From a virus: 36,954 nt of DNA. Below the pieces are notes generated by a model. The model saw only the letters and a program-made list of their open reading frames with translations. It ran no database searches and was not told the origin of the DNA. Numbering within the stretch: position 1 is the stretch's first letter; each line of letters begins with the position of its first letter. The stretch is from the IMG/VR virus record IMGVR_UViG_3300008107_000488, positions 1-36,954 of that record. The stretch is one strand, 5' to 3'. Shown piece after piece: positions 4,754 to 29,236 of this stretch. The position numbers and the translations under genes are program-made.

Positions 4754-6931
4754 TTAACCAGCACAAGCTACGCAGTCTTCACCAGCTTGTTCTTTTTGTT
4801 TTACACTGCGAATATAGTAGATAGCTTTCAAACCTTGTTTGTGAGCGTAGTGAATTGCATCATACAAGTCTTTTGCTTTGAAGTCAGGTTTGTTTTGGTC
4901 AAAGATCAATTCCATTGAAATACCTGTATCAGTGAACTTCTGCATTGCTGCACAAGCGTCAATAATCTCCTTGGCGCTAAACTTAACCTGAGTCTTACCG
5001 TACCCAATTGGGTTATCCTTCAAATACTTTGCAGCAACCTTAACACTCCCTGTCTTGTTATCTTCCGAGAAGAAAGCACTGTAGATTGGTAGTACGCTGG
5101 CGCTCGCATCTTGACTGATACTAGTACTGGTTGTAGGTGCGGGGCTAGTCAATTGACTATTCCTCATACCGTGGATATCAATCTGAGACTGCAAATAACC
5201 CCATTCGTATTTACCACAACCAATCTCTTTGAAGCGTTTGGTCATAGAACCATCCTTCCAAGCACTGTATTTAAAAGCGCCAAAAGCACCCTTTTCCTTA
5301 GCAAGTTCAACTGATTGCAAAGCGGCATTGTATTCAATGCACTCAAAGATTTCAGAAATCAGTTTCGTATTAGCATAGGAATACCGTTCTCTAGCAAAGT
5401 AGTCATGCAACCCCATAACACCAATGCCGATAGTTCGGTAGCGTTCATTGTGAGCCTTCGTGATCGAATCAGGGTGATTAGTCATTTCAATACCTGTGTT
5501 AAGAATCTTGCAAGCAATCTTAGACACTGCTGCGAGATGTTCCATGTCACGGATATTCCCCATGTTGATTGAACCGAGATTACAAACATGCCCGTACTTA
5601 TCTGGAACTACGTTACTAAAGGATTCGGTGCAAAGATTTACACAAGGAATACCAATACTTTCAGGGTCATTCTTATTGGGGTTAAACTCATTGATCTGAT
5701 CAACAAAGGCTAGATACGGAAGACCAGTTTCAAACTGAACACGCATTATTTGTTTGGTCAAGTCCTTAGCCTTGATACGGCGACTCACTTTCAGTTTCTT
5801 TTGGTCATAAGCCTGTTCAATCTTGGAGTATGCTTCTTCAAAATCCTTACCGTACTTTCCACGAATGTCAATACCAAGTTTTTGCTTTACCTCAAACGGG
5901 CAGAAAGTAGTCCATTCCAAGTTCATTTCATCCCGATGCATGAAAATATCAGGTGTTGTAACTTGAGGAAACACGTCGTATGCCTTCAGACGAACATCAC
6001 CGTGCTCAGTCTGCATGTCCAAGAAATCGAGAATATCATTGTGCCAGATAGGGAGCGCCACTGTTCCAGCACCAGCTCGTTTACCACCTTGATTTACAGC
6101 TACTAAAGTATCATTGATAATCTTGACCCATTGGACGATTGTGTTACTTGCGTTTTCAGCTTTACCAACAGAACTTCCTTTGGCACGGAGATTACCAAGA
6201 TAGATGCCCAATCCACCACCGTTCTTACTGATCTTTGCAATGCGGTGGATGTTATTGAAAATGCTGTCAATATCATCTTCAATGCTGATAATAAAGCACG
6301 ATGCTGTATTACCACCAGAACGCAGGTTAGACATGAAAGGTGTAGCAAGACTGAACTCACGTTTGCTCAAAACATTGTAGACTTCTTTAACAAATTCTGT
6401 GCGCTGTTCCGGTGAAACATTTAACCCAAACCGCAACGCATTAACCATGTGCATTTGCTGATTGGTTTCGTACTTGTTCTGATACTTGGTGCTGTTTGTA
6501 ATCAATGCTGCATAGCTACAATCAAGGTCGCGGTCATGCTTAATATAGTTGCCAAATTCGTTCAATTCTTCGCTGCTATACGATAGTAACGACTTATCAT
6601 AGAATCCCTTACCTACAACATAGTTAATAAATTCTGCAAAAGGTTTATCTAAGAATTGACTACTGTGTTGCTGATGCATAGCAAACGCATGACCTGCAAC
6701 CATCAACCATTCAGGCTCCTGTGCATTGGCAAGCTGTTTAGCGTGTCCAACAATATTCAATTGAATATCAGAAGTCCTAATACCCTGCTTCAGGAAATAG
6801 TCGATTCTGGATTCGAGTTTTAACGGATTGACTTCCGTACCAGCACAGGCATGTGCGATACTTTGCTTAACTTTTGCAATATCAAAATCTTCTTTTGTCC
6901 CATCTCGTTTCGTAACCTTAATAATATCCAT
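4754..6931 (-). CDS. nrdA: Ribonucleotide reductase class I, large (catalytic) subunit
   Basis: 725 residues. Reduces ribonucleoside diphosphates to deoxyribonucleotides together with NrdB. An N-terminal ATP-cone-like segment (VTKRDGTKEDFD...) is followed by the ten-stranded barrel: TASCF (redox cysteine), KNGGGLG, the active-site N-x-C-x-E in CVNLCTES, the PAPTTSTS loop, and a C-terminal redox pair CVAC four residues from the end. Its ATG shares one base with the stop of the upstream gene (TAATG), so they are coupled. Confidence 0.96.
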   Translation of the reverse strand: MDIIKVTKRDGTKEDFDIAKVKQSIAHACAGTEVNPLKLESRIDYFLKQGIRTSDIQLNIVGHAKQLANAQEPEWLMVAGHAFAMHQQHSSQFLDKPFAEFINYVVGKGFYDKSLLSYSSEELNEFGNYIKHDRDLDCSYAALITNSTKYQNKYETNQQMHMVNALRFGLNVSPEQRTEFVKEVYNVLSKREFSLATPFMSNLRSGGNTASCFIISIEDDIDSIFNNIHRIAKISKNGGGLGIYLGNLRAKGSSVGKAENASNTIVQWVKIINDTLVAVNQGGKRAGAGTVALPIWHNDILDFLDMQTEHGDVRLKAYDVFPQVTTPDIFMHRDEMNLEWTTFCPFEVKQKLGIDIRGKYGKDFEEAYSKIEQAYDQKKLKVSRRIKAKDLTKQIMRVQFETGLPYLAFVDQINEFNPNKNDPESIGIPCVNLCTESFSNVVPDKYGHVCNLGSINMGNIRDMEHLAAVSKIACKILNTGIEMTNHPDSITKAHNERYRTIGIGVMGLHDYFARERYSYANTKLISEIFECIEYNAALQSVELAKEKGAFGAFKYSAWKDGSMTKRFKEIGCGKYEWGYLQSQIDIHGMRNSQLTSPAPTTSTSISQDASASVLPIYSAFFSEDNKTGSVKVAAKYLKDNPIGYGKTQVKFSAKEIIDACAAMQKFTDTGISMELIFDQNKPDFKAKDLYDAIHYAHKQGLKAIYYIRSVKQKEQAGEDCVACAG

Positions 6932-17891: not shown

Positions 17892-17967
17892 TGGTAGGTA
17901 CGCCGGGACTCGAACCCAGAACTGCCCGATTATGAGTCGAGTGTTATAACCATTTAACTAAATACCT
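17892..17967 (-). tRNA. tRNA-Met(CAU), or tRNA-Ile2(CAU) if modified
   Basis: 76 nt including an encoded CCA. Cloverleaf: acceptor AGGTATT / CGTACCT (one mismatch at the inner pair and one G-U), D-stem GTTA/TAAC, anticodon stem CTCGA/TCGGG with loop CTCATAA (anticodon CAU), variable CAGTT, T-arm CTGGG-TTCGAGT-CCCGG, discriminator A. A CAU anticodon means elongator Met unless C34 is changed to lysidine, in which case it reads AUA. Four bases separate it from the Arg tRNA. Confidence 0.88.
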
Positions 17968-17971
17968 GTAT

Positions 17972-18046
17972 TGGTAGGCGGTGGCAGGATCGAACTGCCA
18001 TTGGAATTTTAGAAGAATTCTTTCTTATCCATTAGAAGAACCGCCT
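17972..18046 (-). tRNA. tRNA-Arg(UCU)
   Basis: 75 nt including an encoded CCA. Acceptor AGGCGGT / ACCGCCT is perfect; D-stem TTCT/AGAA; anticodon stem GAATT/AATTC with loop CTTCTAA (anticodon UCU, reads AGA and AGG); variable CAAT; T-arm GGCAG-TTCGATC-CTGCC; discriminator A. AGA/AGG are often rare host codons. Transcribed from the promoter at 18058-18086. Confidence 0.92.
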
Positions 18047-18057
18047 ATGATTTCGCT

Positions 18058-18086
18058 ATTGTATCACTGATTGCTCAGGTTGTCAA
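18058..18086 (-). promoter_or_regulatory. Consensus sigma70 promoter for the tRNA genes
   Basis: Minus strand: TTGACA (18081-18086), 17-nt spacer, TACAAT (18058-18063), with TG one base before the -10. The -35 lies within the 3' end of the NAMPT-like gene. Predicted start about 18050, four bases before the first tRNA. Confidence 0.85.
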
Positions 18087-19580
18087 GTTCTTTGCAACGG
18101 TATCGCGGATTTCAACCAATGAAGTTTCGGTTACGAGATTACCATCAATAAATACCGTTTGCAAACATCCAAACTTCTCTTGTTCCGGTGTTTGTTGGTC
18201 GTGTAATACATACGTATCGTTTTCAAGCTCAACACGCAACAAACCTTTCGCTGACTTTTTAACACCACTATCAGTGATAGGGTCTTTGAACAACTCAACA
18301 CCTTTGCCGTCACATACACTATATGTTGCTTTCATTGCAAACCCGAATGTGTCACGGGTAACGTATTGGTACGTATAGCTACCCACACCAAACACCACGT
18401 TGCAGCTTGCAAAACCCTTTTGCATCAATCGTTGCATGATATCGTTTGCGCGGTCAAGTGTAATGCTGTCGCCATAGATAAGACCAACACGTTCGTTCAA
18501 GACTTTAAAACCTTTGTCAGTGATTGTACCACCGAATGTGTCCCACAGTAACTCTACAGCACCTTTTTGCTCAGGGGTGTTACCACCAAGTTCATGTGAT
18601 GTACCACACAGAATATCAGCAGGGTCACCAGAGTCAGGTCGAAACACTACTTTAGCGAGTCCCAACTCATTAGGTTTACGATCAAGAATCTCTTGTTTCA
18701 ATGATGGTGCTGTTTCAGTCATCACCTTCCAAAAGTCCCAAGTGTCAGAAACGATGCTGACAAGACCTGTTGGTACAACTTCCGTAATCAATCGCTTGAA
18801 AGTTTCACGCTCATTGACTTTACCACCCGCGCACATAACACTGTGCTCAGTAGCAGGGACAGAGCCACCAATGAACGTATCTTCAGCACCATAGTACGCC
18901 TCCAAGAAGTCATAAGAAGGGATTGTGTCACTACCGAGGAAACTAACCAAGTGCCCTGCACAACTTGCTGCATCATGCAGGTTACTCTGACCACGAAGAC
19001 TGAAGTCATGCGCTTGCCACAACACGAAGTCAATAGGTGAACCTGTTTTAACTGCGTAACCAGTCAACATCTTGCGGTACTCAAAAGCAGTAGTTGCCGT
19101 AGTAATTGGCTTCCAGAGCTCATCACTCAACACTGTTTCCAGATAGTTTGTCAACCAAAAGAATTCAGGCTTTGTGTTCTTGATTGTCAGCACAGGAACT
19201 TTAACGGGAACCAAGCTGCCTTCTGGGAGTGCTTTGATTTCAATAGGGAGATAGCCAAGGTCGTGCAAGTCAGCAATGTGCTGAACATCAACAACACCAT
19301 TACCAAGGGACACATCACAACGCTTTTTGTATTTTGCAAGCACCTGATCTTTTGGTTTGTTGAAGAAACCCTCGTTAAAACTGTCAATCAAGAAGTCCTT
19401 GATGAAGCCTTGCAATCCGAAGAAAACTACCTTATCGATTGTTTTACCACCGACAGTAGGCGCAAGTTTGTTACTGCGAGGTGTGAAGTTGCTATAGATC
19501 ATTTCTGTACCTACAGGGTACATAGCTTTGTGACCTACTTTATAGAAGTCGCAAGCGAAGATTGGGTCAATATATGTCAT
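18075..19580 (-). CDS. Nicotinamide phosphoribosyltransferase-like (NadV / Namat type)
   Basis: 501 residues. Homolog of NAMPT, which joins nicotinamide to a ribose pyrophosphate. Visible are the N-terminal CDFYKVGHKAMYP and YSNFTPR, the active-site segments LWQAHDFSLRGQSN and SVPATEHSVM, SDTWDFW, and VFRPDSGDP. In the phage NAD+ reconstitution pathway NARP1 the NAMPT-like enzyme (Namat) uses ADP-ribose pyrophosphate and makes NAD+ directly. The adjacent PRPP-synthetase-like gene fits that pathway. The ATG at 19580 follows AAAGGA; the longer frame start is rejected. Confidence 0.9.
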   Translation of the reverse strand: MTYIDPIFACDFYKVGHKAMYPVGTEMIYSNFTPRSNKLAPTVGGKTIDKVVFFGLQGFIKDFLIDSFNEGFFNKPKDQVLAKYKKRCDVSLGNGVVDVQHIADLHDLGYLPIEIKALPEGSLVPVKVPVLTIKNTKPEFFWLTNYLETVLSDELWKPITTATTAFEYRKMLTGYAVKTGSPIDFVLWQAHDFSLRGQSNLHDAASCAGHLVSFLGSDTIPSYDFLEAYYGAEDTFIGGSVPATEHSVMCAGGKVNERETFKRLITEVVPTGLVSIVSDTWDFWKVMTETAPSLKQEILDRKPNELGLAKVVFRPDSGDPADILCGTSHELGGNTPEQKGAVELLWDTFGGTITDKGFKVLNERVGLIYGDSITLDRANDIMQRLMQKGFASCNVVFGVGSYTYQYVTRDTFGFAMKATYSVCDGKGVELFKDPITDSGVKKSAKGLLRVELENDTYVLHDQQTPEQEKFGCLQTVFIDGNLVTETSLVEIRDTVAKNLTT

Positions 19581-19593
19581 GATGTTTCCTTTC

Positions 19594-20382
19594 TTAAATA
19601 ACTGTAACTTTGTCAGCAACTTCATTGTTCATCAAGTTGCTTGTATAGATTGTACCATAGTATTTCAAAAGTTCGTCTACTCCCTTGCTGAAAATACCAT
19701 GCGTCACGTAAAGGTCGATAGTCGTATCTGGTTGCGCTACTTTGATGACCTGAGCAAGTGCTATGAATGTAGCTCCACCGTCACAAATGTCATCCACAAC
19801 CACAGCAGTACAACCCAAACTATCGTTTAATTCTTGCGTGTATACAACCTTACCATCTTCGCGTGTTTTCTCAAAGCAAACCAACTTTGTATTATAACAA
19901 TCCGCAACCTCTTTAGCCTTCGCTTTTGCACCCTTATCAGGAGCAACGATTGAAGCGTAATCCCCCGCCAACTGAAAATCCTGCTTTCTTTCAATAAAAT
20001 TGATACCAGACTCAGTTAGTAGGGTTTTTGATACATTACTATGCAAGTCTCTAACAACCAATGTCCCAAAGTATGCTGTTGAAAGTAGTTTTACGAACAC
20101 CTCCAACGCGAAGGACTCGCCAGTAGAACAGACACGATCTTGTCGTGCATAAGGTAAGTACGGTAAGTGCAAGGTAACGCCTTCTTTGTAGAACCCTTGG
20201 TGCTTCAGTGCGTTAAGAATGTTTAGCATGTGCATTATGTTGCTTGCATCTACAATTCCAGTTACAAAAACATCTGCGGAAGTACCCTTACGTTCTGACA
20301 GTTTTACACCAACCTCCCCACCGGGGAAAGTCCAAGTTTTGACTTCTACACTAAAGTTGTCGTCAATCACTACTTCGATCAT
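19594..20382 (-). CDS. Ribose-phosphate pyrophosphokinase-like (Prs / Adps type)
   Basis: 262 residues (bacterial Prs about 315). Transfers pyrophosphate from ATP to ribose 5-phosphate or, in Adps of NARP1, to ADP-ribose. Motifs in order: LPYLPYARQDR (73-83), DLHS (112-115), VAPDKGAKAKA (146-156, the catalytic-loop region) and the PRPP-binding VVVDDICDGGATF (194-206), then YVTHGIFSKG. It is immediately upstream of the NAMPT-like gene. Bases 19905-19941 are copied exactly (37 nt) into the RNA ligase gene at 28643-28679. AAAGGA precedes the ATG. Confidence 0.9.
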   Translation of the reverse strand: MIEVVIDDNFSVEVKTWTFPGGEVGVKLSERKGTSADVFVTGIVDASNIMHMLNILNALKHQGFYKEGVTLHLPYLPYARQDRVCSTGESFALEVFVKLLSTAYFGTLVVRDLHSNVSKTLLTESGINFIERKQDFQLAGDYASIVAPDKGAKAKAKEVADCYNTKLVCFEKTREDGKVVYTQELNDSLGCTAVVVDDICDGGATFIALAQVIKVAQPDTTIDLYVTHGIFSKGVDELLKYYGTIYTSNLMNNEVADKVTVI

Positions 20383-25950: not shown

Positions 25951-26334
25951 TTATGTGTTCAATAAGTAGTTGGCGTACTCGTATTCGGTTTTTGTCACCG
26001 TATAATCACCAATCGAATACTCAGTTTTTGTACCAGCAGCTTTTTGCTTTGCTTTGTGACTATCTTGCTCACGTTGGCACATCCGGTTGAATTGACTTCG
26101 TGTTTTGTCTTTTATCTTGTTTACTTGCGTAGTTGAAGGTTTTAAGTCAGATGCTAAGGCCCTCTCTACAAAAGTTAGACGTAGCATAACTCCACCAAAC
26201 TCTTCATAATTCATCTTTGTTTTAAGCACTTCACGTACCTTACCAGCATCACGAGATGAACATCCAGCAAAATCGGTGAACGCTTTGATCTTTGTGTTGA
26301 TTAACTCCTCTGTGAGTGACAAGCCTTGTGACAT
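25951..26334 (-). CDS. Hypothetical protein, first gene of the leftward operon
   Basis: 127 residues, mainly helical and basic (PSTTQVNKIKDKTRSQFNRMCQREQDSHKAKQKAAG). No family recognised. It is the gene nearest to the leftward promoter at 26366-26395, so it is expressed first from this side; a regulatory or DNA-binding role is a guess from position and charge. AAGGATTGTAA precedes the ATG. Confidence 0.68.
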   Translation of the reverse strand: MSQGLSLTEELINTKIKAFTDFAGCSSRDAGKVREVLKTKMNYEEFGGVMLRLTFVERALASDLKPSTTQVNKIKDKTRSQFNRMCQREQDSHKAKQKAAGTKTEYSIGDYTVTKTEYEYANYLLNT

Positions 26335-26347
26335 TTACAATCCTTAT

Positions 26348-26395
26348 GTTTGTTTCGATGTACAAATTCTAGCACAATCTCAAGCACTGCGTAAA
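26348..26395 (-). promoter_or_regulatory. Leftward early promoter with 30-bp conserved core
   Basis: Minus strand: TTTACG (26390-26395), 18-nt spacer, TGC-TAGAAT (-10 hexamer 26366-26371), 5 nt, CATCGAAACAAAC. Bases 26348-26377 are an exact inverted copy of 27085-27114. Contains TTTGT-N8-ACAAA, a possible operator. Confidence 0.8.
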
Positions 26396-27065: not shown

Positions 27066-27114
27066 TTGCACCACTGGTTTAAAGTTGTGCTAGAATTTGT
27101 ACATCGAAACAAAC
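27066..27114 (+). promoter_or_regulatory. Rightward early promoter with 30-bp conserved core
   Basis: TTGCAC (27066-27071), 19-nt spacer, TGC-TAGAAT (hexamer 27091-27096), 5 nt, CATCGAAACAAAC. Bases 27085-27114 are an exact inverted copy of 26348-26377, so both arms share the promoter and first transcribed bases. Confidence 0.82.
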
Positions 27115-27127
27115 TGAAGGAGAAATC

Positions 27128-28077: not shown

Positions 28078-28100
28078 TTTGTAAATTGAAAGGAGAAGAT

Positions 28101-29236
28101 ATGTCTGAACGAAAAATGGCTACAATTCGTCGTATTGCAGAAGTAAAAGCAATCGAAGGCGCTGACCGCATTGTTGCTTATCGGGTTGATGGTTGGTATG
28201 TTGTTGACAGCAAGGATAAATATCAAATAGGTGACTTGGTAGTGTATTGTGAACCTGATTCGTGGGTTCCGCATAGCATTGCACCGTTCTTGACCAAACC
28301 AGATCAGTTCCCAAAGGTTTACAAGTCCGTAGAAGGTCAGAAGCTACGAACGATTAAACTTAAGGGTCAGTTGTCTCAAGGCTTGTTGTTACCTTTGTCC
28401 CAAAGTGATCACGACAAAAATCAGGCACTGATTGACTGGTTTGTTGTAGAGCACGGTGGTAATGATGGGTGCCCTCGTGTCAGTGAAGGTGATGACGTTT
28501 CTGAAATCCTTGGTATCCAGAGATGGGAAGCTGATATTCCTGCACAACTTCAAGGTCAAATGAAGGGTTCATTCCCTAGCTTTATCCGCAAAACAGACCA
28601 AGAACGGGTTCAGAATATCCGTGACTTAGGCCAGTACAAATACCTGATAAGGGTGCAAAAGCGAAGGCTAAAGAGGTTGTTCAGAATATCCGTGACTTAG
28701 GCCAGTACAAAGACACTATGTTTGAAGTTACTGAGAAGCTCGAAGGCTCGAGTCAATCCGTGTTCTTTTACAACGGTGATTTCGGTGTATGCAGTCGTAA
28801 TGTAGAACTGAAAGATGATGGGGTTAACACGTTCTGGCAGGTAGCAAAGCAATACAACTTGGAATATAAGTTGCGTGGCTTCGGGAAGAACATTGCAATT
28901 CAGGGTGAACTTATTGGCCCTAATATTCAGGGCAACATCTATAAACTGCAAGCACCAGATTTCTATGTGTTTGACATTTTTGACATTGATAAACAGCAGT
29001 ACTTTGTATCAAGAGATCGTCGTATTCTTTGCCAACTACTTGGATTAAAGCATGCCCCATTGATCGATAAAATTTATGGTTTTGCAACAAACAATGAGTA
29101 TCTTTTATTTGCAGAAGGTAAGTCAGTTCTCAATCCGAGTCAAGAGCGCGAAGGATTGGTATTCAAAGCATTAGGTGGTGGTTTTAGCTTTAAAGCCGTC
29201 AGCAACCACTACCTTGTTAAACAGAAAGGAAATTAA
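28101..29236 (+). pseudogene. RNA ligase (DRB0094/Rnl5-like), interrupted by a 71-bp insertion
   Basis: Without the insertion this is a 354-residue RNA ligase: an N-terminal OB-like domain (KMATIRRIAEVKAIEGADRIVAYRVDGWYVV, GDLVVYCEPDSWVP, RTIKLKGQLSQGLLLPL) and a nucleotidyltransferase domain with motif I EKLEGSS (catalytic Lys), GELIGPNIQGN and REGLVFKA. As sequenced, 71 bp after base 28640 shift the frame: the first part stops at 28700 and the catalytic part could restart at the ATG at 28718. The insertion is 28641-28711, made of a prs-derived segment and a repeat of 28608-28640. Motif I lies in the downstream piece, separated from the N-terminal domain. Confidence 0.85.
28608..28711 (+). 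repeat. 33-bp direct repeat flanking a 37-nt copy of the prs-like gene
   Basis: 28608-28640 and 28679-28711 are identical (33 bp, period 71). Between them, 28643-28679 is identical to the reverse complement of 19905-19941 in the PRPP-synthetase-like gene. Two bases (TA, 28641-28642) have no visible source. Removing 71 bp restores the RNA ligase frame. Confidence 0.95.

Follow-up and report, generated by a model that had tools for sequence, protein, structure and literature searches.

A phage RNA ligase gene split by a 71-bp insertion that includes an inverted copy of part of the phage's own prs-like gene

How does the RNA ligase gene of a phage come to be interrupted by a short piece of another gene of the same phage? 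The question is raised by IMGVR_UViG_3300008107_000488, a linear IMG/VR metagenome record that is known here as an assembled consensus and whose whole length of 36,954 bp was analysed (hereafter, the window). Its DNA polymerase is nearest to that of Pseudomonas phage vB_PsaM_M1 (64% identity), the closest isolate, whose record is classed in Ounavirinae and which has no RNA ligase annotation in the portion of its genome examined; the searches brought up no close relative. The conserved genes of the contig besides the ligase appear to be full length, which indicates that the contig is not scrambled generally. The features on which the argument turns are the following.

28086..28700, plus strand: ORF of the N-terminal ligase fragment, with the OB-fold module PF21189 and a match to positions 2-153 of TIGR02306
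28608..28640, plus strand: first copy of a 33-bp direct repeat, encoding VQNIRDLGQYK; 36 bp (to 28643) if one mismatch is allowed
28641..28642, plus strand: two bases, TA, without an exact-copy origin in ligase or prs
28643..28679, plus strand: copied prs stretch, a 37-nt exact copy of the prs coding strand
28679..28711, plus strand: second copy of the 33-bp direct repeat, identical to 28608-28640
28718..29236, plus strand: C-terminal ligase fragment, with the nucleotidyltransferase (RNA_ligase) domain PF09414 and the motif EKLEG
19594..20382, minus strand: intact prs-like gene of the ribose-phosphate pyrophosphokinase family
19905..19941, minus strand: origin of the copied bases, within the prs-like gene, an inverted exact match to 28643-28679

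The window holds no continuous ligase reading frame; it is broken at 28641-28678, and the upstream ORF terminates after the insert with an out-of-frame tail and then a stop. The two fragments cover consecutive parts of both DraRnl-type family profiles, positions 2-153 and then 158-341 of TIGR02306 and positions 5-177 and then 182-393 of phrog_968, and across both of them the DraRnl-type architecture is present, with an N-terminal OB-fold module followed by the RNA_ligase nucleotidyltransferase domain. All other copies of this family that were seen are uninterrupted at the site at which the ligase described here is split, and either fragment taken singly scores under the TIGR02306 cut-off. The sequence-only reading, an earlier inspection made without database searches, had claimed that removal of 71 bp rejoins the ligase in one frame, and this held: joining the flanks by script yields a single open frame of 359 codons (KTDQERVQNIRDLGQYKDTMFEVTEKLEG) that matches the family and aligns with its homologues through KTDQERVQN...EKLEG. 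The earliest ATG of the C-terminal fragment, at 28718, is located 17 nt beyond the upstream stop and is preceded by a weak AGG, so re-initiation at this position is possible, if unproven. No second RNA ligase domain was found in the window, and, judging from the sequence, the split ligase probably lacks activity as a single protein. Translated in the frame of the C-terminal part, the insert happens to give the prs peptide PDKGAKAKAKEV, but a stop precedes that peptide.

Direct comparison verified that the two repeats are identical over exactly 33 bp and that 28643-28679 is the exact reverse complement of 19905-19941 over all 37 nt, the two stretches lying 8,701 nt apart. The earlier statement that the 37-nt match is beyond chance was likewise borne out, the computed expectation being 1e-13 for exact inverted 37-mers and 5e-13 for direct 33-mers within 400 bp. 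The account of the insert given at that time, in contrast, was correct for the repeats and the prs copy but incomplete, having missed that the TA at 28641-28642 comes from neither copy. These are either two untemplated bases, or 28641 is a G-to-T substitution within a duplication of 36 bp. The total extra length of 71 bp can accordingly be parsed as an exact 33-bp duplication with a 38-bp insert, 2 nt of which are unmatched to prs, or as a 36-bp duplication carrying one mismatch (28641 T versus 28712 G) with a 35-bp insert, and the two parses fit the junctions equally well. The ends of the copied stretch, 28643 C and 28679 G, match the ligase repeats too, and G28679, the last inserted base, is common to the insert and the second repeat. 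Under either parse the overlap is at most 1 nt at both junctions; by computation, an overlap of 0-1 nt is expected at 83% of random junctions. Some assemblers use k=33, and the coincidence of this value with the length of the repeat says little, since that length is fixed by where the jumps fall.

The prs-like gene and genes for nicotinamide/nicotinate phosphoribosyltransferase overlap on the minus strand at 18075-20382, a pairing that recurs in several of the fetched viral loci and that we take to resemble the NAD+ salvage operons with which phages counter NAD-depleting defences. A single-protein scan of viral_contigs found no relatives of the prs protein, and distant ones turned up in other fetched loci. 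Genes for tRNA Met-CAT and tRNA Arg-TCT (17892-18046, minus strand) adjoin these NAD salvage genes; the tRNA pair is relevant because RNA ligases of the DraRnl kind may repair tRNAs.

The sequence-only reading had called for a search of related phages for the same insertion and of other phages for self-copied inserts flanked by duplications, and both searches came back empty. At the site, the seven isolate ligases with annotation and the further homologues in the alignment have neither duplication nor insert, each having one copy of the repeated stretch. A scan of the fetched viral loci for the motif KTDQERVQN gave 126 matches, including the window itself and one locus (L001) that is a copy of it; a duplication or prs insert was seen in none of the other 124, and the ligases among them that remained flagged are either normal in frame length or cut off where their fragment ends. 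One of these loci (L253) has a lone in-frame stop (KYS*HGFS) in a ligase, starting at 5360, whose frame is otherwise intact; it is unrelated to the insert and may represent a pseudogene, a sequencing error or a recoded stop. The exact 37-mer and 33-mer have no match in viral_contigs, and no second contig with the allele was found there; the exact 24-nt core of the insert is absent from the bacterial and archaeal genome collection.

For similar events elsewhere, we surveyed viral sequences for direct repeats within 400 bp of each other whose intervening stretch is copied from another place in the same sequence. The survey covered 2.58 + 1.09 + 2.80 Mb, or about 6.5 Mb with some overlap, mostly metagenome contigs with about 0.34 Mb of isolate phages. 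It revealed no second dispersed self-copied insert, the other matches being repeat arrays or multi-copy repeats. Exact inverted pairs of at least 24 nt were encountered elsewhere in the first 3.68 Mb only in a repeat-rich stretch of one locus (L017), in the short repeats of three others (L146, L157 and L165) and, within the window, at the leader pair (see below). With no further event in the sample, the rate can be at most roughly 0.5 per Mb, and there is no indication in the surveyed set that a biological switch recurs or that such an assembly error is frequent.

As the origin of the split gene, we tentatively prefer a single, recent templated insertion within the phage lineage, a reading drawn from the sequence to which we give somewhat less than an even chance and which we place ahead of a chimera. 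It would begin where the ligase gene has a staggered break or a gap that is being replicated or repaired; synthesis would take in 35-37 nt of prs sequence and resume about 33-36 nt upstream, so that this stretch is duplicated and 71 bp are added. This could come about by a polymerase double switch, in which the polymerase exits the ligase after 28640, copies prs and re-enters at 28608, or by capture at a staggered gap, in which a fragment is captured in a gap of 33-36 nt and the gap is filled in to either side of it. The two routes predict an identical product, and the near-absence of homology slightly favours capture. The polymerase jump with a return 33 nt upstream, as originally proposed, is possible, and the broken gene, the prs copy and the duplication on which it was based are all present, but the 1-nt junctions give no sign of homology-primed switching. 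That the event took place in the phage rather than during library making, and that its enzymatic steps were a double switch or capture with gap filling, we infer.

As in a template switch, the insert was copied from another template, of which it is an exact inverted copy over 37 nt; the microhomology or inverted repeat that would prime such a switch is not seen, the overlap being 1 nt only. The quasipalindrome template-switch mutations known from phage T4 and E. coli (Ripley 1982; Schultz and Drake 2008; described or cited in PMC7202029 and PMC8604942) are alike in that a stretch is copied from an alternative template and inverted relative to the contig. They differ in acting between nearby imperfect repeats, whereas the source here is 8.7 kb away with an overlap of 1 nt, and a target duplication of 33-36 bp is added here, unlike in those mutations as known. 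Several points stand against templated insertion. The allele is known from one metagenome consensus, with no second contig found to carry it. There is little or no microhomology, hence no positive signature of a homology-primed switch, and to enter the consensus an allele that destroys function would have had to be frequent among the phages sampled. Because deletion between direct repeats is expected at some rate, the ligase allele should, on this reading, be unstable.

The strongest competitor to templated insertion, less probable in our view but still to be taken seriously, is a chimeric ligase-prs molecule that was formed during amplification or library making and retained in the consensus of a low-coverage contig. 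The record is indeed a linear metagenome contig available as a consensus only, and its allele is shared by no relative, either in the exact searches or among the 124 other motif-bearing ligases. More than 85% of MDA rearrangements are inverted (Lasken and Stockwell 2007, PMC1855051), and the ligase insert resembles such chimeras in joining, in inverted orientation, segments within 10 kb of each other (8.7 kb). However, 93.5% of inverted MDA chimeras of less than 10 kb have complementarity of at least 2 bp (PMC1855051), as opposed to an overlap of 1 nt at both junctions here, which makes an amplification chimera, by MDA or PCR, less likely than it appears at first sight. Most MDA chimeras have one junction, primed by 2-21 nt of complementarity, whereas the insert has two junctions of 1 nt each and would require two jumps in one molecule, with a return within 33 nt of the exit. 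In addition, no other such case was seen in the approximately 6.5 Mb surveyed, most of it metagenome-assembled viral sequence.

A more unusual explanation, which we consider improbable, is that Cas1-Cas2 of the host took a 35-bp prespacer from the phage prs gene and integrated it in the ligase gene, a 36-bp target being duplicated in the way that a CRISPR repeat normally is. Ordinary transposases produce much shorter duplications, of about 2-14 bp. The 36-bp duplication and 35-bp insert together make up a 71-bp unit that is similar to a repeat-spacer unit, and junction homology is not required for such integration. Both strand ends of the 36-bp target start with G (GTTC... and GTCT...), which places G at the integration positions under that parse with a chance probability of about 4%, and off-target Cas1-Cas2 sites show a preference for this base in vitro (PMC6895254). 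Cas1-Cas2, when overexpressed, has been reported to integrate outside arrays in vivo (Nivala et al. 2018, as cited by PMC11788318). The sizes expected of spacer integration, a fragment of 30-40 bp with an exact target duplication of 24-37 bp, compare here with 33 bp exact plus 38 bp, or with 36 bp plus 35 bp at the cost of one mismatch between the duplicates. Under the 36-bp parse the insert shares with the reported off-target events a captured fragment, here of 35 bp, between the copies of a 36-bp duplication, and the G at both ends, but differs in the mismatch, in lacking a leader and in having no known PAM. The source is flanked by CTC on its 5' side and GCG on its 3' side, with no clear PAM; the target contains no hairpin or palindrome; the 24-nt core finds no matching spacer in the bacterial and archaeal genome collection; the survey of about 6.5 Mb offers no second example; and the hypothesis was formed after the lengths had been seen. 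Virus-borne mini-CRISPR arrays (PMC6858448) likewise place a repeat-spacer-repeat unit within a virus genome, but those are intergenic, have genuine CRISPR repeats and leaders, and carry spacers against other viruses, not self.

The least credible explanation by a wide measure is that the 71 bp are gained and lost precisely as part of a programme that turns the ligase on and off, as the sequence-only reading had suggested. The 33-bp direct repeats could delete, and the flanks join in frame, but no recurrence is seen in relatives (none of the 124 other motif-bearing ligases has the duplication or the insert), and no process is known that could put that prs fragment back.

If the templated insertion is real, short self-copied inserts flanked by long target duplications can inactivate phage genes, in a class of mutation that gene callers report as a pair of unrelated ORFs. 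Were it instead the work of Cas1-Cas2, CRISPR adaptation would mutate phage genomes directly, with off-target adaptation acting as a mutagen. Should it be an artefact, it would serve as a clean reference case when metagenome contigs are screened for double-jump chimeras.

Two further repeat structures were observed in the window. The leader pair mentioned above (26341-26377 and 27085-27121) consists of 37-nt inverted arms, 95% complementary, upstream of two divergent gene blocks; both arms end in AAGGA right before the start codons at 26334 and 27128, and the pair is probably a shared early promoter/leader. The tail-fibre gene at 330-556 carries a unit of about 51 nt (NTAxG-type) four times in tandem, followed by a conserved C-terminal part.
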